From the IMG/VR virus record IMGVR_UViG_3300005096_000003, positions 1 through 26,474 of that record: a stretch of DNA of 26,474 nucleotides. One strand, given 5' to 3'. Under the pieces are notes generated by a model that saw only the letters and a program-made list of their open reading frames with translations, was not told where the DNA came from and searched no databases. The position numbers and the translations under genes were made by a program. Each line of letters begins with the position of its first letter. Position 1 is the first letter of the stretch. Positions 5,478 to 24,583 of this stretch are shown one piece after another. Origin of the DNA: a virus.

Positions 5478-5868
5478 AAATCTGTTCCTCAAATCCTTGA
5501 AACGCTTCAAAGCGGGTAAGTGGGAAAATCTGCTCTAGGATGGGTCCCCCAGCGAAGCCTAATCCCGGAGTTATTTTGGTTCCAGTTTGCTGTAGATGAG
5601 CGTTACCGAAGATGTCGAGCAGCAGGAAATACATAGTACCAGACAGAACATTATCGGTGGTGGGTGACCGCGTTGCCGTAACACTGTGCAGGATAAAGCA
5701 TCGAGGTCCGTGATCTAAAATTGCAATGTCGATTACATGATGCAGGCAGTCCACGAGAAGGCTGTGGACACCAACCCAAGTCTCGCCTTTTTCAATTGTT
5801 ATGTGGTACTGCACAGGCCACAAGGGTGCTCGGAACATTTTAGCGTGGAAGTTGTCGGCTTCGCTCAT
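5422..5868 (-). CDS. Conserved-looking phage protein of unknown function
   Basis: The 148-residue product (starts MSEADNFHAKMFRAPLWPV) looks like a mixed alpha/beta globular protein without signal peptide, metal-binding cluster or ATPase motif. Its ATG at 5868 overlaps the TGA of the sigma-like gene (ATGA), and its 3' end overlaps the SNF2-like gene by 56 bases, so it belongs to the same translation unit. A longer frame reaches upstream to 5928, but only by running inside the preceding gene. I do not recognise the family. The context points to replication, recombination or early expression. Confidence 0.65.
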   Translation of the reverse strand: MSEADNFHAKMFRAPLWPVQYHITIEKGETWVGVHSLLVDCLHHVIDIAILDHGPRCFILHSVTATRSPTTDNVLSGTMYFLLLDIFGNAHLQQTGTKITPGLGFAGGPILEQIFPLTRFEAFQGFEEQIYEAKNKSTTLPKKGDSRD

Positions 5869-6404
5869 TTGCCCACCAGCGCACGCCCAATCTCTGCGAA
5901 TGACTCTGTGATGCGGCGCCCACTCCAACCCAGGTCAGTGAAGAATTCTCGAATGGCGCTGCGATGGTTTGCCGGGCTTCCGGTGTTTCGTTGTGCATAC
6001 GCCATTTTTAGATCCATAGGTGGATCGAAAAGTGCTTCAACAATACAGCGTGCATCTGTTGTCAATTCTTCGACAAATTCAAACAAGTGAAAACTTGACG
6101 GAACTACACCCCTTTGATCCATGTCGTCCGTCAAGTTTTCTTCAATTTGTGCTCTTCTTCTAGCAAACCGGCGTCGCTCCTCAAGTAGCAATTTCCACAG
6201 TAAGAAATTGAACCACGTTGTGAAGTCACCATTTTTCGGTTGATAGGTTAGGAATGCTCTCATGAAAATTGTGTTACTCTGTGAATAATACTCATCAAAA
6301 TCTCCACCGTAGACTTTTTGGAACCGCTGAATGAGTCCTATAGTGAGACCTCGGACGTCTGAGTGTGTTTCCGCAGCGCTGTCCTGCGCCAGTGTTTGAG
6401 GCAT
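5865..6404 (-). CDS. Sigma-factor-like protein (region 2 and HTH-like C-terminus)
   Basis: The 179-residue product has a segment at about residues 30-85 (DEYYSQSNTIFMRAFLTYQP, then DFTTWFNFLLWKLLLEERRR). It follows the sigma-70 region 2 pattern: 'Q--N--F--A---Y-p--G-F-TW----------R'. The C-terminal part (SAIREFFTDLGWSGRRITES) looks like a helix-turn-helix that could stand for region 4. It may redirect host RNA polymerase to phage promoters, or it may be a degenerate relative used in replication; the sequence cannot decide. The ATG at 6404 is chosen for the AGGAG seven bases upstream, within a leader (ACCACA) shared with the next gene. It ends in an ATGA overlap with the following gene. Region 2 similarity is fairly clear; true sigma activity is unproven. 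Confidence 0.62.
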   Translation of the reverse strand: MPQTLAQDSAAETHSDVRGLTIGLIQRFQKVYGGDFDEYYSQSNTIFMRAFLTYQPKNGDFTTWFNFLLWKLLLEERRRFARRRAQIEENLTDDMDQRGVVPSSFHLFEFVEELTTDARCIVEALFDPPMDLKMAYAQRNTGSPANHRSAIREFFTDLGWSGRRITESFAEIGRALVGK

Positions 6405-8115: not shown

Positions 8116-8159
8116 TGCCTTGTTCCTTTGTGAAAGTGATGTGGTTGCGTTTGTCATTT

Positions 8160-8188
8160 CTTATACCACCACAATAACGAGTGAATAA
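8160..8188 (-). promoter_or_regulatory. Putative early promoter, copy 1
   Basis: On the minus strand TTATTC (8183-8188) and TATAAG (8160-8165) are spaced by 17 bases. The -10 matches the consensus at five of six positions; the -35 is poor. The same arrangement is preserved in all three cassettes, which supports function and suggests help from an activator or another sigma factor. Confidence 0.5.
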
Positions 8189-8212
8189 GAGTCGTCCAGT
8201 TCAGTTCGGTAT

Positions 8213-8228
8213 AAATCTTGAAAGATTT
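8213..8228. promoter_or_regulatory. Operator-like palindrome, cassette copy 1
   Basis: AAATCTT-GA-AAGATTT is a perfect 7-bp inverted repeat with a 2-base spacer, 25 bp upstream of the -35-like box. Copy 2 (10792-10807) is identical. Copy 3 has a different palindrome with the same centre. Confidence 0.5.
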
Positions 8229-8281
8229 CTGAAATAATCAAAAAGGCAAGGCCGGGAAAACAAGGATTAAGTGATTCGGAT

Positions 8282-10700: not shown

Positions 10701-10856
10701 GTCCTTTGTGAAAGTGATGTGGTTGCCGTGACACGTTTCTTATACCACCACAATAACGAGTGAATAAGAGTCGTCCAGTTCAGTTCGGTATAAATCTTGA
10801 AAGATTTCTGAAATAATCAAAAAGGCAAAGGCCGGGAAAACAAGGATTAAGTGATT
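10701..10856 (-). repeat. Promoter cassette, copy 2
   Basis: Near-identical to copy 1 (8121-8276), including TATAAG (10739-10744), the TTATTC box 17 bases away and the palindrome AAATCTT-GA-AAGATTT (10792-10807). The TAA stop of the upstream gene (10847-10849) lies inside the cassette, in the TCACTTAATCC block. It drives, or separates, the repeat-domain gene at 10133-10693. Confidence 0.85.
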
Positions 10857-11288: not shown

Positions 11289-11435
11289 GTTCCTTTGTGA
11301 TGTGGTTTTGGTTGCGTTTGTCATTTCTTATACCACCACAATAACGAGTGAATAAGAGTCGTCCAGTTCAATTCACCAAGAAAATTAGAATTTTTCCAAA
11401 ATAATCAAAAAGGCCGGGAAAACAAGGATTAAGTG
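11289..11435 (-). repeat. Promoter cassette, copy 3 (diverged centre)
   Basis: Shares TATAAG (11327-11332), TTATTC and the GACGACTC block with copies 1 and 2, and the outer GGCCGGGAAAACAAGGATTAAGTGA block. The 30 bp between them differ. The palindrome here is AAAATT-AG-AATTTT (11381-11394), centred at the same position. It should drive the whole leftward arm. Confidence 0.82.
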
Positions 11436-11566
11436 AGTCAGTCAAATCCCGAAACCGTGTCCCATAATAGGTTTCGTCACTATTATTATCGGTTACAAGG
11501 ACTGCAGTCCTTTCGGCAAAAGTTCCGGTTTTTGGTGTTTCATTGATATCTGTGACGTATGTAACA

Positions 11567-15306: not shown

Positions 15307-16822
15307 GGGTGGACGGAAAAGTGAAGCGCCAATGTATAACTTTGGTGGCAATCGTTTTGGGGGTAATATGAATGCCCCCACTGTCAATGCTTTATTGACG
15401 AGACAAGGGTTACTCAATAATCTGTTTGATTCCAGGCGGGATATTGACGATGAGTGTGGCTACCCAAAAGTGGTGACGCCTACGCAATACAAATATCTGT
15501 ATGAGAGGGAAGGTATTGCGGAGCGCGTTGTCAATGTGTGGCCAGAGGAGACCTGGGTCTTGGAACCGAGCATCACCGAGAATGAGGATGCTGAGTCCAC
15601 GGCATTCGAGGAGACATGGGAAGATTTGAACGATGAGTTCCGGTTCTGGCACTATCTAAGCAAAGTCGATTTGCTGTCTGGAATTGGACACTTTGGGATT
15701 TTGTTGTTGGGCATTGATGATGGGTTGGAGCTTGTTGAGCCTATTGATGGAATAGGACCTGATGGAAAATCAGACTCCCCCCTGAGTCACGAGTTGGTTT
15801 ACCTGCGTGCTTATGATGAATCTCAAATTACGATTGACCGCTACGATAAGGACCCCAGTTCCCCACGGAATGGTCTGCCTGATATATACTCTATTCAAGA
15901 AGGGGTTGTTTCTACGCAGCAAACTAATTCGGACAATTCTAAGTCAGTCAAAGTTCATTGGACTCGGGTGATTCACGTTGCTGAGACACAGAAAACAGCA
16001 AGTGAAGTTTTTGGCGTTCCACGCATGCGCCCTGTCTATAATCGGCTGTATGACCAACGCAAGCTATTGGGTGGTTCGGCCGAGATGTTTTGGAAGGGTG
16101 CGTTCCCTGGGTTTAGCTTTGAGCTCAATCCTGACATGGTAGGTGACGTCGAATTGGACAAGAAAGCGTTGCGTGAGGAATTCGAGAACTATAGCAATGG
16201 CCTCCAACGCTATCTTGCAACCCAAGGACTTCACGTTCGGTCATTGGCTCCTCAGGTTGCTTCGCCGAAAGAGCACTTTGAAATTCAGATGCGTGCCATC
16301 AGTGTAACCATTCGTGTTCCTATCCGTGTTTTTATGGGTACTGAGGAATCAAGGCTTGCTGCGGACCAGGATACGAAAGCGTTTAATAAGCGTCTCACTT
16401 GGCGACAAAATCATTTCGTTGAGCCTATTATTGTGAGACCTTTCATAGAGCGTCTTATCGCCCTTGGAATTCTGCCCGAAGTGGAATCATTTGATATCAC
16501 GTGGGTTGACTTGGCATCTCTGAGTGAGCAGACCCGTGCCGAAATTGGTAAGCTCAAAACTGAAGCGATTGTCAAGTATGCTGCAGGTGGCGCGGAGACG
16601 TTGATTCCACCGAGGGAGTATTTCATCCATATCCTTGGTATGGATGAAGACACGGTCGAAGCTATTATTGATGCGGCCGAGGAGGTTCAAGTGGAATTGG
16701 ATCTGCAAGCCGAAGACGAAGCAATAACCGACGAGTTTGGTAACCCCGTAGAGCAGGACGGAGAGGTTGATGAATTTGGCAACCCGATTAAGGAAGAAGG
16801 GTCATTCAAGAAAGCGGCCTAA
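15287..16822 (+). CDS. Portal protein (DUF1073-like)
   Basis: The 511-residue product forms the ring at the capsid vertex through which DNA enters. Its course is that of the DUF1073 portal-type proteins: a basic N-terminus, 'YKYLYEREGIAERVVNVWPE' (residues ~67-86), a FRFWHYLSKVDLLSGIGHFG region (~118-137), 'LRAYDESQITI', and a C-terminal half with FMGTEESRLAADQDTKAFNKR (~350-370), typical of portals. The last 40 residues are acidic, with a short repeat (DEFGNPVEQDGEVDEFGNPI). Position directly after terminase and before a MuF protein is standard. The Pfam family is nowadays labelled after the anti-CBASS protein Acb1, but nothing here indicates that activity. Start at 15287 follows AAGGAGAG. 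Confidence 0.85.
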   Translation: MKKKKRKGGRKSEAPMYNFGGNRFGGNMNAPTVNALLTRQGLLNNLFDSRRDIDDECGYPKVVTPTQYKYLYEREGIAERVVNVWPEETWVLEPSITENEDAESTAFEETWEDLNDEFRFWHYLSKVDLLSGIGHFGILLLGIDDGLELVEPIDGIGPDGKSDSPLSHELVYLRAYDESQITIDRYDKDPSSPRNGLPDIYSIQEGVVSTQQTNSDNSKSVKVHWTRVIHVAETQKTASEVFGVPRMRPVYNRLYDQRKLLGGSAEMFWKGAFPGFSFELNPDMVGDVELDKKALREEFENYSNGLQRYLATQGLHVRSLAPQVASPKEHFEIQMRAISVTIRVPIRVFMGTEESRLAADQDTKAFNKRLTWRQNHFVEPIIVRPFIERLIALGILPEVESFDITWVDLASLSEQTRAEIGKLKTEAIVKYAAGGAETLIPPREYFIHILGMDEDTVEAIIDAAEEVQVELDLQAEDEAITDEFGNPVEQDGEVDEFGNPIKEEGSFKKAA

Positions 16823-16834
16823 TCAACTCCGATA
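16821..16834 (+). repeat. 14-bp direct repeat, copy A
   Basis: AATCAACTCCGATA overlaps the portal stop codon. An exact second copy lies at 23367-23380, overlapping the stop of the second methyltransferase-like gene. Both are followed by AT-rich -10-like sequence. Confidence 0.7.
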
Positions 16835-16886
16835 ATAAGGATGGACCGTATTGTTTTGTGTTTCCTGTCTAATGGAGGAGAGTGTT

Positions 16887-17420
16887 ATGAGATATGTTAA
16901 GATGCTGATTGGTTGGTTGCTTATTGGTTGTGCTGTCTATGGCTCCCCTAAAGCGGAGGTCATCAAAAACAAGAAGGCACTTGAGGCGAAGAGGGCTTAC
17001 GAGACTGTTTTGAAGCAAGCTAGAGCACGCTACGTCATCCAATTAAGTGAGTCAATCAAGGAGGAGGGAGCAAAAGGGAATTTGAAGCAAGCCAATTTAT
17101 TGAATGAGATGAAAAACAAACTTGAAGCAGGTGAAGATGGAAGTGAGGTCTCTGCTATTATGCGTGCTCAGAAGAAGTTGGAGGGGACACGTTGGGGACC
17201 GACGGTGAAAAACAGTATTTTGTTGTTGACAAATCGTAGAGTTCTGTTTGGAAATAAAACGTCCGGAGTTTGGATTTTAACAGGTACTCGGACCCTAGTG
17301 TTGCAGAGTAGCAGCAGTGTCAATATCACAGTTTGGAGCTTTAATGATAGATTGAATTCCGCCACTGTTCACACATTCAAACACGCTAGAGGTTCCCGGG
17401 TCTACAATAGGCAGAGGTGA
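16887..17420 (+). CDS. Secreted or lipid-anchored protein, planctomycete-type layout
   Basis: The 177-residue product has a signal sequence (MRYVKMLIGWLLIGCAVYG) with a possible lipobox, LIGC (Cys15). A charged helical region follows (~25-90: KKALEAKRAYETVLKQARAR), then a beta domain beginning KLEGTRW and containing GVWILTGTRTLVLQ. The order helical 'AL-A---Y---L--A' region, then 'L-GT-W ... G-W---G---L-L' is one I associate with secreted proteins of Planctomycetes and Verrucomicrobia. The ATG at 16887 follows GGAGGAG. It sits between portal and MuF, where an extra gene of this kind may be a moron acting on the host envelope. Function is unknown. Confidence 0.65.
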   Translation: MRYVKMLIGWLLIGCAVYGSPKAEVIKNKKALEAKRAYETVLKQARARYVIQLSESIKEEGAKGNLKQANLLNEMKNKLEAGEDGSEVSAIMRAQKKLEGTRWGPTVKNSILLLTNRRVLFGNKTSGVWILTGTRTLVLQSSSSVNITVWSFNDRLNSATVHTFKHARGSRVYNRQR

Positions 17421-17468
17421 GTGTGTTTAATTAGGTGCTGCACTTCACAGTTTTTGGGGGATTGAGTT

Positions 17469-17795
17469 ATGGTCTGGTTAGGTTTTTTAGCATGGGGCTC
17501 CAAGGCCGATGAGTATGGAGTTGTTCCGATGCTGCCTGGAGTTATCCAGAGTCTAGTTGATGGGGATGGGAAAGACTGGACTGAGGAACGCGTTGCTTGG
17601 ATAGATTTTGCACATGGTATTATCGGCGTGCAGGATACATCCAGTGGGCAACTGATTATTGAGGATGGTGACGTTGTCTGTGTGGCACATAAAGTCAAAC
17701 GTCCGTTAGAAGTTATTTTTAAGGCCGATGCGTTCAAAGGCATGGATCCAGCAAATGTGTTTCGTGACTATGGTATCATTATAGAGGGGCAGTAA
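17469..17795 (+). CDS. Conserved-looking head-region protein of unknown function
   Basis: The 108-residue product (starts MVWLGFLAWGSKADEYGVVP) is mostly beta (LIIEDGDVVCVAHKVKRPLE). It starts with a short hydrophobic stretch that is too brief for a clear signal peptide. The stop overlaps the next start (TAATG). No family recognised. Confidence 0.58.
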   Translation: MVWLGFLAWGSKADEYGVVPMLPGVIQSLVDGDGKDWTEERVAWIDFAHGIIGVQDTSSGQLIIEDGDVVCVAHKVKRPLEVIFKADAFKGMDPANVFRDYGIIIEGQ

Positions 17796-18097
17796 TGAAC
17801 GTCCGATGCGGTGAATGCAAGCGTGTCTATAATGACGAGTTCTGTTGGACGTTGTGTCCTCATGGTCCTCTTGAAGAGCCGCAGATAATTACGTTGGACA
17901 TGGCGACCATCAACACAATTGAAAATTGCTTAACAGAAGATCAAAATAGACCAATTCCGAACGAAGTAGAATTTATCAATTTCTGTCCGCGATGTGACAC
18001 ACTGATCACTCGGCATGGTTTATGCCAGCATCAGATAATTCATGTGGAAGCCGCCCAGCGACGGAGTAAACAGAATGGCAAAGTTGAAGACGCGTAG
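17795..18097 (+). CDS. Small protein with two Cys clusters
   Basis: The 100-residue product has a Cys-rich N-terminus (CGECKRVYNDEFCWTLCPHG) and a second cluster near residue 70 (CPRCDTLITRHGLCQHQ). Each could hold a zinc ion. It is coupled to the gene before (TAATG) and overlaps the MuF-like gene by 23 bases. It may be an assembly accessory; no family recognised. Confidence 0.6.
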   Translation: MNVRCGECKRVYNDEFCWTLCPHGPLEEPQIITLDMATINTIENCLTEDQNRPIPNEVEFINFCPRCDTLITRHGLCQHQIIHVEAAQRRSKQNGKVEDA

Positions 18098-20780
18098 GCG
18101 CCCCGCAAATACTTTGAGGCAGGACCCTACCCGAACGACCGGGTTGCGCCGGAGGTTTGTGGCGGACATGCGCCGGAGGGTTTTGGCAATTAAGAATTCT
18201 GTATGGCGCCTGATTGTTACTGAGGACGCGTTTGGTCTCAAGATAACTCAGTCGGCGCAGGACATACGCAAGACCTTATCTGCTGGTCGATTTGATCGTT
18301 CTCTTGGTCTAGTGGGGAATACAAGATTTGCGTTTGGCACGGATGCCGATAAAGTGGAGGGGTTCAATCAATGGTTTCAGGAGCAAGTTGATGCTGGACT
18401 ACTGCAGGTTGATGGTGACACTGGTAAGCCCTGGACTTCGCGCTATGTTGACAGTTCCTATCGTCAAGGTGCGGTGCGCTCTTACACAGAGACCAATCGT
18501 CCGGAACTCACAGGCAACCTGGATTTCTATCAAGGCACAAAAGCTCAATTCTTGCGGGACGCGTTTTCGCAACCGGAAATGGTCAGCAAGGTCAAACTGT
18601 TAGCGACCAGAAACTTTGCTCAGCTCAAAGGTATTGGTGCGGCAATGTCAACTGACATCAGTCGCATTCTTTCGGATGGGATATCTAATGGATTAGGACC
18701 GCGGGAGCTTGCACGGAGTCTCAACAAGTCTATAGACGCCATCGGTAAGAAGCGTGCGCTGACAATGGCACGCACTGAGGTTATTCACGCCCACTCGGAA
18801 GGTCAATTGGATTCCTTTAAGTTCTTGGGAGTCGAAGAAGTTGGCATTATGGCCGAATGGAGCACAGCGGGAGATGATCGTGTGTGTCCGCTGTGTGGTC
18901 CGTTGGGTGGAACAGTGATGACTGTCAAGGAGGCGCAGGGTCTCATCCCACGTCATCCTAATTGTCGATGCGCATTTGTGCCAGCAAACATTGGCGAGTC
19001 CACCAAAGGACAGAAGCGTGGGAAAAGGAAAAGACAAGAAGCATTTGACGAGTCTGTTGGGGCTGGTTTTGGGAGAGACACTTCATTGGCGGAGGCGCGT
19101 CTTCGGTCAGCATGGCCCGGCGCAGATACGCGGTTTCTTAAACTACCGAAGAAACTAAGAGAGCCCAAAATTTCGGAGCGCATAGGGGCCCCTGCTTCTG
19201 GTTTATGGGGGCACCAACCCACCTCAGTTATTCGTTGGATGGGAAAAGAAGGGTTCAATTTCAAGCAAGCGAAGAGGGCGCTGGAAGCTAGTGGCGTAGA
19301 CATGAAGGACGCCACTATTCGTGCGCAATTGTCGGCTGGTAAGAAGGGTCTGCGAGGGTCTCCGGCAAACTTAACACCAGAGCAAGCATCCCGTTTACGT
19401 TTCCGCACCGCTAGAAGAGACCCCGGTCCTGCACCGCCCCCAAAACTGCCCCCGCTCCCAAAACCTGTCATTCCCCCAAAACCACTTCCCCCAAAGCCTC
19501 CAGTTATTAGTCCGGACAAATTAGTGGAGGGTATTAAGGCGAAGCCCAAAACTAGGATTATTCGTTGGATGGGAAAAGAGGACTTTGATTTCAAGCAAGC
19601 CCGTGCAGTTTTAGATGATCTTGGAATCGACGTGAAGGACTCCACTATTCGTGCTCAGTTGCGTGCAGGGAAGATAGGAAAGCGTGGAGCGCCGGCAAGT
19701 TTTACGGACGCACAGAGTGCACTGTTGAGGGACAAGAAGAACCGGTTTAGAGTGGACCCGAGTCCTAGACCGAAGCCGAAACCAGAACCACCCACTCCTA
19801 AGCCTACTCCAGAACCGGCTGCTAAGTCTGTGAGTACCGCACCGGAGCACCTCGGATTCAGTGGGGACAACGTCACTGATTTTAGTAAGCGGGTGTGGGG
19901 TGAAGTTGGAGATGGACTTGAGGACGAAGTCCATGCGCGGCGAGTGGGCAAATTGTTTCGGGAAGAAATTCAGAGGGATCCACGTTTTGTGGCGCTGGAG
20001 AAAAACATAACAAAGTTTGAAAAAATAGAAGCTGACTTTATAAAAAAGGGTGCGCTAAAGGAGCTGCCCGCTGGCGCTAGTGTGAAAGAAGCCGAGGTGT
20101 TTAATAAGTCACGCAAGCAGTTTTGGTTGAACCGTCGCCGCCTAGAAAACACTCAAAACAATAGAAGTACACTGATGACTGAGTTGATGCATGAAAAGCT
20201 ACCTGAGATTCGGGACATAGGTGGGCAGCGTATTAAGACTTTCAGCGCAGGAGACACGCCAAATGAAGTGAACGCCAAAGTTTTTGTGCAGGATGCCTCT
20301 AAGAAACTCCCTAAAACTTGGATGAAAGATGTTGATGAGTTTACTGAGTTGCGAGTAAAGGCTGAAAGCCGCGGTTACTTTTTTGAGGGTCCTCTCAGAT
20401 TGGAGGGCCGGACCATAAGTGAGTTGGCGTTGAATCCAACGGGTCCTAAATTGGGACCAATGAGCACGTCTACGCATGAATTAGTCCATGCTGTAGAAGC
20501 TTCCAATAGAAGAGCAGGGAGGCTGCAAAGACAGTTCAAACTAAGACGTCAAGCAGCTTCTGCCGGGGAAAAGGGGAAGTTGTCTCGTATCTATAAGGGT
20601 AGTGAAGAGTGGGGTTTCAAGGACGAGTTTACTGAGCATTACATGGGTAAAAACTATAGTGGCAAGCATCATGAAATACTGACAATGGGTGTAGAAGGCC
20701 TCTACCACAATAAATTTCAATTGTGGGCGAAGGATGAGGACATGGTGGATTTTATTCTTGGCATGCTAGCGGGGCTTTGA
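18075..20780 (+). CDS. MuF-like head protein with two repeat domains and a C-terminal HExxH domain
   Basis: The 901-residue protein combines several modules. Residues ~120-315 carry the Mu gpF/SPP1 gp7-type domain: ARTEVIHAHSEGQLD, then EWSTAGDDRVCPLCGPLGG (Cys271, Cys274), then IPRHPNCRCAF. MuF proteins are packaged with the head and help assembly. Two copies of the 'IRWMGK' domain follow (~384-442 and ~494-552), separated by Pro/Lys-rich linkers. After a second Pro-rich linker, residues ~590-901 form a domain with HELVH (801-805) and possible third ligands at Glu867 or Glu874, the signature of zincin metallopeptidases. MuF proteins with toxin-like or enzymatic C-termini are known in phages. 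The ATG at 18075 follows CGGAG. The MuF part is firm; protease activity is inferred from the motif. Confidence 0.82.
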   Translation: MAKLKTRRRPANTLRQDPTRTTGLRRRFVADMRRRVLAIKNSVWRLIVTEDAFGLKITQSAQDIRKTLSAGRFDRSLGLVGNTRFAFGTDADKVEGFNQWFQEQVDAGLLQVDGDTGKPWTSRYVDSSYRQGAVRSYTETNRPELTGNLDFYQGTKAQFLRDAFSQPEMVSKVKLLATRNFAQLKGIGAAMSTDISRILSDGISNGLGPRELARSLNKSIDAIGKKRALTMARTEVIHAHSEGQLDSFKFLGVEEVGIMAEWSTAGDDRVCPLCGPLGGTVMTVKEAQGLIPRHPNCRCAFVPANIGESTKGQKRGKRKRQEAFDESVGAGFGRDTSLAEARLRSAWPGADTRFLKLPKKLREPKISERIGAPASGLWGHQPTSVIRWMGKEGFNFKQAKRALEASGVDMKDATIRAQLSAGKKGLRGSPANLTPEQASRLRFRTARRDPGPAPPPKLPPLPKPVIPPKPLPPKPPVISPDKLVEGIKAKPKTRIIRWMGKEDFDFKQARAVLDDLGIDVKDSTIRAQLRAGKIGKRGAPASFTDAQSALLRDKKNRFRVDPSPRPKPKPEPPTPKPTPEPAAKSVSTAPEHLGFSGDNVTDFSKRVWGEVGDGLEDEVHARRVGKLFREEIQRDPRFVALEKNITKFEKIEADFIKKGALKELPAGASVKEAEVFNKSRKQFWLNRRRLENTQNNRSTLMTELMHEKLPEIRDIGGQRIKTFSAGDTPNEVNAKVFVQDASKKLPKTWMKDVDEFTELRVKAESRGYFFEGPLRLEGRTISELALNPTGPKLGPMSTSTHELVHAVEASNRRAGRLQRQFKLRRQAASAGEKGKLSRIYKGSEEWGFKDEFTEHYMGKNYSGKHHEILTMGVEGLYHNKFQLWAKDEDMVDFILGMLAGL
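19227..19730 (+). repeat. Duplicated 'IRWMGK' domain in the MuF-like gene
   Basis: Copy one is 19227-19400 and copy two 19557-19730. DNA identity is high at both ends (ATTCGTTGGATGGGAAAAGA and the CCACTATTCGTGC block), so the duplication looks recent. A single, more diverged copy forms the C-terminus of the early protein at 10133-10693. Confidence 0.85.
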
Positions 20781-20781
20781 T

Positions 20782-21066
20782 ATGTATCGAATTAAAGGCA
20801 GCTTTCCTGGGTCACGGCGAAAGCTAGAGATAGAATGGGATGATGGTGTTATCACAGGGGATGACGATGCTGTTTTTGGTTTGATAACCATGGCAGAAAC
20901 GGCTGAGGACATTGGGTTTCCTGGAATGAGAATTTTTAGTGGCATGGCGATCCTAGGCGATGGCACCGCCACCTGGGTTTTCATCAATCGCATTATGGAT
21001 GATGTGGAAATTATATTAGGAAAACTTCCGAAACTTCCGAAGACGCCAAAAGGGTCCATCCAATGA
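20782..21066 (+). CDS. Small protein following the MuF-HExxH gene
   Basis: The 94-residue product (starts MYRIKGSFPGSRRKLEIEWD) is acidic in its first half and beta-rich, with a basic, Pro-containing tail. The ATG is one base after the MuF-like stop, so it is probably translated by re-initiation. A small acidic protein coupled to a possible toxin or protease could be its inhibitor or chaperone; this is a guess from position. It overlaps the next gene by four bases. Confidence 0.6.
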   Translation: MYRIKGSFPGSRRKLEIEWDDGVITGDDDAVFGLITMAETAEDIGFPGMRIFSGMAILGDGTATWVFINRIMDDVEIILGKLPKLPKTPKGSIQ

Positions 21067-23380: not shown

Positions 23381-23558
23381 GTATAATATCTACGACTCGT
23401 TCGGTGCCCTGTACTTTTTGCTAAACTTCAGACCACGGAGGTGTGCACACTTCTTGCCGATTGGTAGCAGGCAGCACTCTGATTTGGATGTGAGCTGTTT
23501 TCACTCACTCAGTATCACATTCGGGACGAGCGAGTTGTTTTGAGATTAAGGTCACCCA
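23381..23558 (+). promoter_or_regulatory. Intergenic region with -10-like box and palindrome
   Basis: No gene or tRNA is visible. TATAAT (23382-23387) is a perfect -10 but lacks a -35 at the right distance. GTGTGCACAC (23441-23450) is a perfect 10-bp palindrome and a possible operator. The rest shows only weak short repeats. Confidence 0.35.
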
Positions 23559-23735: not shown

Positions 23736-23933
23736 ATGCTCGTTCTTTCCCGCAAACCTCAGGAACGTATTTTTATCGGGGATGACATTATTGTGACCGT
23801 CCTAGAGTCGGATTGTAATAAAGTTCGGCTTGGTATTGATGCCCCCACACACATAAACATTGTTCGTGAGGAATTGGTTTGTAAAGCTATTTCTGTTGAG
23901 ATGGAAAAAGAGTCTCAAAGGTTTACTTCTTGA
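23736..23933 (+). CDS. csrA: Carbon storage regulator CsrA (RsmA)
   Basis: The 65-residue product is a complete CsrA: MLVLSRKPQERIFIGDDIIV (residues 1-20), VRLGIDAP (~30-37) and INIVREELV (~40-48), with the RNA-contacting Arg44 of the 'VREE' motif in place. CsrA dimers bind GGA in mRNA leaders, mainly over ribosome-binding sites, and alter translation and stability. A phage copy could retune host metabolism or time the phage's own genes. ACAAGGAAGU lies just upstream, a likely self-target. A terminator follows directly after the stop. Confidence 0.95.
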   Translation: MLVLSRKPQERIFIGDDIIVTVLESDCNKVRLGIDAPTHINIVREELVCKAISVEMEKESQRFTS

Positions 23934-23957
23934 ACGGAGCTGACGGCTCCGTTTTGT
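23933..23957 (+). terminator. Intrinsic terminator of the csrA operon
   Basis: AACGGAGC and GCTCCGTT form an 8-bp stem with a 5-base loop, followed by TTTGT. It begins at the csrA stop codon. Confidence 0.85.
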
Positions 23958-23959
23958 GG

Positions 23960-24067
23960 CCGACGAAGGTGATGGCTTAGGATTTGTGGCAATGGGGTTT
24001 GTGGTTATCCTCCACCCACGTTACTGGCTGCCGGGCTAGTTATGAGTCCTTTGTCTCCCTTCGTCGG
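23960..24067. ncRNA. Possible structured RNA between csrA and the tail module
   Basis: CCGACGAAGG (23960-23969) and CCTTCGTCGG (24058-24067) could close a 10-bp helix around 88 bases. Inside, only short helices are seen (GTGG-7-CCAC). On the minus strand the region holds several GGA motifs, as in CsrA-sequestering RNAs, but they are not in clear hairpin loops. The strand and even the existence of a transcript are uncertain. Confidence 0.3.
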
Positions 24068-24078
24068 TCCTCTATAAC
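24051..24078 (+). promoter_or_regulatory. Putative promoter P1 ahead of the inverted repeat
   Basis: TTGTCT (24051-24056) and TATAAC (24073-24078) are 16 bases apart. Transcription would start near 24085, just before the 27-bp inverted repeat, so its RNA would contain the whole hairpin. Confidence 0.4.
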
Positions 24079-24090
24079 GACTTAGGTCCA

Positions 24091-24161
24091 CCCTTGACAA
24101 AATTATGTGTTTGTCCTAGACTACCAAACTACACAGGACAAACACATAATTTTGTCAAGGG
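24091..24161. repeat. Perfect 27-bp inverted repeat with 17-base loop
   Basis: Arms 24091-24117 and 24135-24161 are fully complementary, with no mismatch, and begin CCCTTGACAAAATTATG in the left arm. The right arm ends in CAAGGG, part of the Shine-Dalgarno sequence for the gene at 24173. Each arm holds GACAA and TTGTC half-sites, four in total. It lies 134 bp beyond the csrA terminator, at the border of the tail-like module. Confidence 0.95.
24094..24122 (+). promoter_or_regulatory. Putative promoter P2 inside the inverted repeat
   Basis: TTGACA (24094-24099), a perfect -35, lies in the left arm; TAGACT (24117-24122), four of six matches to the -10 consensus, starts at the last base of that arm. 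Spacing is 17 bases. Transcription would begin near 24129, in the loop, so this RNA lacks the left arm and cannot form the hairpin. Confidence 0.6.
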
Positions 24162-24172
24162 AAGGCGTACCA

Positions 24173-24583
24173 ATGACGTTCAAGATTGCAACTGATACCC
24201 GCAACAAAGCCTGTGACGCTATTGTCGATGATGTTGATGCGGGCGCCGCGGCTGGTTATGTTGAGATAAGAACAGGCGCACCATCCGGCCCCAATGCAGC
24301 AGACTCCGGCATATTGCTCGCCACACTGCCGATGAGCGATCCTGCGTTTGGTGCTGCGGTTGCCGGCGTGGCAACCGCCAATGCAATCACCAACGATTCG
24401 TCTGCTGACGCCACTGGAACTGCGGCACATTTTCGGCTCAAGGACTCCGATGCTAATATCGTTGGGGAAGGCACAGTCACAGCAACCGGCGGCGGCGGTG
24501 ATATGGAACTGAACAGTGTCTCAATTATCATTGCTGCCGTGGTCTCAATCACGTCATTGACTGTCACTGTTCCAGAGAGTTAG
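24173..24583 (+). CDS. Probable structural protein at the start of the tail-like module
   Basis: The 136-residue product (starts MTFKIATDTRNKACDAIVDD) is rich in Ala, Gly, Val and Thr, beta in character, and resembles small tail or decoration proteins of phages (GYVEIRTGAPSGPNAADSG, then LATLPMSDPAF). The end (SITSLTVTVPES) is also strand-like. Base use is more GC-rich than the genes before. The ATG at 24173 is chosen over the longer frame from 24107, which would run through the inverted repeat; GGGAAGG lies seven bases upstream at the edge of that repeat. Function is by analogy only. Confidence 0.62.
   Translation: MTFKIATDTRNKACDAIVDDVDAGAAAGYVEIRTGAPSGPNAADSGILLATLPMSDPAFGAAVAGVATANAITNDSSADATGTAAHFRLKDSDANIVGEGTVTATGGGGDMELNSVSIIIAAVVSITSLTVTVPES

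Follow-up and report, generated by a model that had tools for sequence, protein, structure and literature searches.

The stretch of DNA analysed here (the window, 26,474 nucleotides) covers the opening 26.5 kb of a 65.8-kb record of an uncultivated virus, which is recognisable as a tailed phage from its genes for terminase, portal protein, MuF, a DUF2213-type protease and major capsid protein. In relatives, as little as 64 bp and as much as about 7.5 kb separate the MuF gene from the protease gene. Here the interval extends over about 10 kb, from window position 20782 to approximately position 30850 of the record, and carries thyX, csrA, a long inverted repeat and appendage genes. Because this interval varies among relatives, the repeat is regarded as lying in cargo DNA, and the G+C content shifts from 0.43 to 0.52 in the repeat region. 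Relatives found in IMG/VR and in genome contigs by means of the capsid protein share 33-61% identity with it; the portal protein, csrA and the protein encoded at 5868-6401 retrieved none or one relative when used as queries, and no similar DNA was found in GenBank phages. The last of these proteins, encoded on the minus strand, resembles a small sigma factor by eye (regions 2 and 4), without support from Pfam, PHROG, PDB or structure. In locus L011, genes that by eye resemble folE, queC, queE and queD, judged from their translations, are clustered (16167-19382, minus strand; 62167-65382 of the record that holds this locus), which suggests 7-deazaguanine DNA modification. The features surrounding the repeat are compiled in Table 1.

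Table 1. Features from csrA to gene 24173 (positions are those of the window).
Feature	Position	Strand	Basis
Phage csrA	23736-23933	+	PF02599, 9e-22
Terminator-like hairpin, ACGGAGC..GCTCCGT then TTTTG, just 3' of csrA	23934-23955	+	
Strongly folding leader/intergenic stretch, csrA to repeat	23957-24069	+	z -4.73
Weak promoter-like TTGTCT-16-TATAAC, 9/12, without final T, background level	24051-24078	+	Sequence; under scan criteria
Left arm of 27-bp perfect inverted repeat	24091-24117	+	Inverted-repeat search, shuffles
Promoter-like TTGACA-17-TAGACT, 10/12; -35 in left arm, -10 at arm/loop border	24094-24122	+	Consensus scan
Loop, 17 nt; predicted inner transcription start near 24128	24118-24134	+	Sequence; start inferred from distance to -10-like hexamer
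Right arm; last five bases AAGGG (24157-24161), one Shine-Dalgarno candidate	24135-24161	+	
AAGG, second Shine-Dalgarno candidate, adjoining stem end, 7 nt 5' of ATG	24162-24165	+	
Gene 24173: 136-aa virion protein, neck/tail-fibre-like fold, PHROG 3758 (head and packaging)	24173-24583	+	

The perfect inverted repeat described in an earlier note on this DNA was confirmed as real and far beyond chance. Its arms are complementary at 27 of 27 positions, compared to a next-longest perfect arm of 14 in the window and of 15 in the rest of the record, and to longest arms of 9-14 in each of 100 first-order Markov shuffles of the whole record. The RNA fold computed for the region has an energy of -53.1 kcal/mol (z -7.35), and the repeat also stood out on both strands in a coarse folding scan of the whole window. 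A comparison set of 68 inverted repeats with a score of at least 14 was assembled from 2.1 Mb of DNA of this phage and of related phages. Nine of these repeats sit immediately before a plausible start, and the present one is the longest hairpin found immediately 5' of a start codon (27 bp vs 18 bp for the next).

The repeat was absent from every relative examined, the capsid relatives being at most about 61% identical, and no comparable hairpin was detected upstream of the homologues of gene 24173 (36-61% identity). Equally long homologous hairpins were likewise lacking in approximately 2.1 Mb of related loci, which yielded a few hairpins of 14-18 bp and one imperfect 41-base repeat; the latter (locus L046, 6697-6796, GGCTTTTAACCACAGATGAA...) is near-perfect and of the small-mobile-element kind. 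No further copy of the arm is present elsewhere in the record, and its exact 23-mer core has no match in IMG/VR or in GTDB genome contigs, so that the repeat is not a common mobile element. A search of the window against Rfam gave nothing above the gathering score, only sub-threshold microRNA-like matches of the kind given by any long hairpin. The defining feature of an intrinsic terminator, a G+C-rich stem followed by a T run, is not displayed by the repeat, which is followed by AAGGCGTACCAATG and was not among the sites listed by the scan that gave the promoter matches. A perfect 18-bp hairpin in a related phage (L141, 7879-7917), located 21 nt 5' of the start of a 493-aa ORF, has no T run either. 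Repeated leaders of another sort occur on the minus strand of the window, where three copies of a roughly 150-nt sequence (8122-8276, 10701-10856 and 11289-11438; 81-100% identity) stop exactly at gene start codons. Kinship of the right arm with the early leader repeats was considered and rejected, the 18-19 shared bases out of 27 being about what chance would give by a rough binomial estimate.

The promoter-like sequence said to start within the left arm is present as described, with TTGACA at 24094-24099 and TAGACT at 24117-24122, the -10 hexamer beginning at the last base of the arm. RNA initiated there is predicted to start in the loop and would lack the left arm, as had also been claimed. 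Sites at least as good start in a 27-nt interval at a rate of 0.0012 as judged from this record, or 0.0026 as judged from the related loci; the placement is therefore suggestive, although it was noticed after the fact. The second promoter proposed upstream fared less well: its hexamers exist (TTGTCT at 24051-24056, TATAAC at 24073-24078), but the site fails the consensus scan and has to be considered as background, since sites of the listed class are equally common in shuffled sequence (8 found vs 8.8 expected). A different motif, TCAANNCCGATA, mostly continued by ATA, occurs in 7 copies in the 66-kb phage vs 3 in 955 kb of other loci. Copies are located at 16823, 21698 and 23369 on the plus strand and at 888 on the minus strand of the window, and at 51798, 56027 and 64886 on the minus strand of record G000. 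Most of them immediately follow a stop codon or precede a gene, none is at the hairpin promoter, and this motif probably serves as a promoter or regulator site specific to the phage.

RNA from the upstream promoter, or read-through past csrA, had been proposed to fold the two arms together and to cover part of the Shine-Dalgarno sequence of gene 24173. Such folding is indeed predicted in long RNAs, but the terminator-like hairpin between csrA and the repeat makes read-through itself uncertain, and would limit it. The stretch which follows this hairpin and a second structured, multibranch stretch (23386-23552, z -1.91) together flank the pair formed by g23559 and csrA, and both are possible non-coding RNAs near the phage csrA gene as judged from folding models. 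GGA cores, the usual target of CsrA, are present where the right arm begins and at the Shine-Dalgarno sequence.

The protein encoded by gene 24173 gave a structural model with a pLDDT of 91.7. In fold comparisons this model matches the tail-fibre chain of Agrobacterium phage 7-7-1 (E 1e-7) as well as the neck proteins of Bas63 and Sf14, and the sequence itself had no match among GenBank phages at 1e-5. The gene product looks like an appendage or neck protein. Its earlier assignment to a tail-like module was roughly right by fold, with neck or tail-fibre appendage as the more exact description.

Partial cover of the ribosome binding site by the stem, as suggested in the earlier note, is evident from the position of the stem end at 24161, with AAGGG inside the stem and AAGG outside. 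Pairing of the two candidates with the anti-Shine-Dalgarno sequence is about equally strong (-5.3 kcal/mol for AAGGG and -5.5 kcal/mol for AAGG). In the folding model, the probability of being unpaired is 0.00 for AAGGG in all long RNAs and 0.47 in the short RNA; values of 0.47-0.54 for AAGG and of 0.40-0.79 for the AUG were obtained in the long RNAs. Opening the sequence from AAGGG to position +15 would cost 17-19 kcal/mol in long RNAs vs 7.6 kcal/mol in the short one, a difference of about 9-11 kcal/mol. With AAGG as the Shine-Dalgarno sequence, the cost would be 5.9-7.8 kcal/mol vs 5.0 kcal/mol, a difference of only about 1-3 kcal/mol.

Ribosome entry may also be hindered by the hairpin itself, as formalised in the standby-site equation (PMC3936740), which treats access as blocked where a hairpin exposes little single-stranded surface. 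For an RNA beginning at 24085, this model, calibrated on E. coli, from which the host of the phage may differ, predicts a standby penalty of 9.0 kcal/mol and an approximately 56-fold block even when the free AAGG is used, and a block of about 190-1200-fold when AAGGG is used instead. An RNA beginning at 24079 would incur a penalty of 3.3 kcal/mol (4-fold) by the same E. coli-based calculation. Read-through RNA in which 20 bases are free 5' of the stem would have a penalty of about zero with AAGG and a block of about 190-fold with AAGGG. The lock would thus, by this prediction, be tight for some combinations of RNA 5' end and Shine-Dalgarno sequence and leaky for others.

These features may be read as a leader switch, in which translation of gene 24173 is tied to its own promoter through a hairpin of the T4 type. 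RNA arriving from upstream, by read-through from csrA or from a start just before 24091, would pair its two arms into the 27-bp hairpin, bury AAGGG and crowd the ribosome platform, so that gene 24173 would be poorly translated. RNA begun at the inner promoter would lack the left arm and leave the ribosome site open for translation. The net effect would be to couple translation of the module to a private promoter rather than to read-through. Here we infer the use of the inner promoter, the read-through and the difference in translation. Among the readings considered, the leader switch was rated highest because no other accounts both for a promoter-like match within the left arm and for a stem that stops at the ribosome site; we hold it tentatively, as possible but somewhat short of probable. 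The resemblance to the T4 lysozyme gene put forward earlier stands in part: the excess of the hairpin over chance, the geometry of the inner site and the existence of a precedent speak for it; the weak upstream site, indistinguishable from background, the terminator-like hairpin and the closer Shine-Dalgarno candidate, uncovered and suitably spaced, speak against it. The lack of hairpins in relatives and upstream of gene 24173 homologues also weighs against a switch, as does the perfection of the repeat even at positions where RNA would tolerate G-U pairs or mismatches, a pattern equally compatible with a young duplication and with a role at the DNA level.

The foremost rival concerns RNA processing or stability. 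Host RNase III might cut the stem of read-through RNA, or the hairpin might protect the 5' end of the RNA, so that the level of expression would depend on how the RNA is cut or how long it lasts, and a cut might even uncover the ribosome site. The uninterrupted duplex speaks for such a role, and the authors of the standby-site study gave their long hairpins internal loops to avoid RNase (PMC3936740). It is also compatible with a stem that halts at the ribosome site and leaves AAGG free, and with an RNA from 24085, which would start 6 nt ahead of the stem. As it leaves the promoter-like site in the left arm unexplained, we consider processing or stability unlikely, though deserving of serious attention.

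Alternatively, control might be exerted at the DNA level, with the arms acting as identical repressor operators in opposite orientation that flank and overlap the inner promoter. The arm centres are 41 bp apart, or about four helical turns, and each arm contains an imperfect dyad, GACAAA-N8-TTTGTC, of which the first lies over the -35 hexamer and spacer and the second downstream of the start; recognition of the sequence by a protein would predict such perfect identity of the DNA. However, no third copy of the dyad was found in the window and no copy of the arm elsewhere in the record, and no repressor-type HTH_3 domain scored above the cut-off in the record, where the only match, below the cut-off, was in the region of the terminase small subunit. 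Moreover, a 6-bp inner dyad would be expected in a 27-nt arm roughly 5% of the time by chance (own estimate), and the repeat extends beyond the dyad. Paired operators thus appear rather unlikely. Much the same low likelihood is given to a functionless recent inverted duplication, or a scar at a module joint, marking the border between the csrA-side cargo and the appendage genes. A young duplication would account for the perfection of the arms, and the location within the variable MuF-protease interval, the change in G+C content and the relatives without the repeat would all fit. Against it, the repeat stops precisely where the ribosome site lies and contains a promoter-like match; no target-site duplication was seen, and the 23-mer core is without another copy in viral and genome contigs. 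An invertible promoter, in which recombination between the arms would flip the loop with its -10 element, is very improbable: perfect inverted repeats do enclose a segment holding the -10-like hexamer, and the other strand offers a -35 at the same distance, but its hexamer TGTGTA does not qualify as a -10. Moreover, 17 bp would be an unusually small size for an invertible segment, and the record has no match to tyrosine recombinases or resolvases (PF00589, PF00239) under conditions in which positive controls were detected.

Several known systems invite comparison with the element. Small hairpins with a 7-bp stem and conserved bases around -17 to +1 serve as promoters for the virion RNA polymerase of phage N4 (PMC4496689), and also tie an inverted repeat to a promoter, but the geometry here differs. 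The processing stems of RNase III, such as those of rnc and pnp, are long uninterrupted duplexes in 5' leaders (PMC3997798), which the present stem resembles; a promoter-like sequence within an arm does not belong to that class. Leader hairpins are documented for T4 genes e, soc, 49 and I-TevI (PMC3014915), and also for segB and for mobE of Aeh1 (PMC2988022). The gene e precedent works as the earlier note had stated (PMC3014915). As in this class, an inverted repeat precedes a late-type gene, the promoter-like site is so placed that its RNA would lack the 5' arm, and longer RNAs are predicted to hide a ribosome site. The differences are a perfect 27-bp stem, a promoter-like site of ordinary sigma-70 type instead of a T4 late promoter, and one Shine-Dalgarno candidate that stays outside the stem. 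The nearest match in geometry is the seg43 hairpin of Aeromonas phage 25 (PMC2988022), a very stable structure whose stem is immediately followed by the ribosome site, itself not buried. There the gene encodes a homing endonuclease; here the Shine-Dalgarno region lies partly in the stem, the left arm is promoter-like, and the product is a virion protein.

It would be bolder to propose that a phage with no kinship to T4 came on its own to an arm-promoter switch for a host-attachment module, with a partly buried Shine-Dalgarno sequence, a terminator after csrA, a structured leader and possibly an input from CsrA, such that the module would be produced from its private promoter alone; this we regard as improbable. 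If the leader switch works as read, a T4-type lock separating early from late translation would exist independently in an uncultivated phage lineage, on a gene for an attachment appendage, and would offer a clean test of the extent to which a hairpin ending at the ribosome site, rather than covering it, blocks translation, a question open for seg43 of Aeromonas phage 25. The hairpin may work like the leaders of the T4 gene e type or of seg43; membership of the T4 class is not claimed, since the promoter is present only as a sequence match and burial of the Shine-Dalgarno region is partial. By its sequence, the element is likely to be a phage leader hairpin that varies on a known sort.
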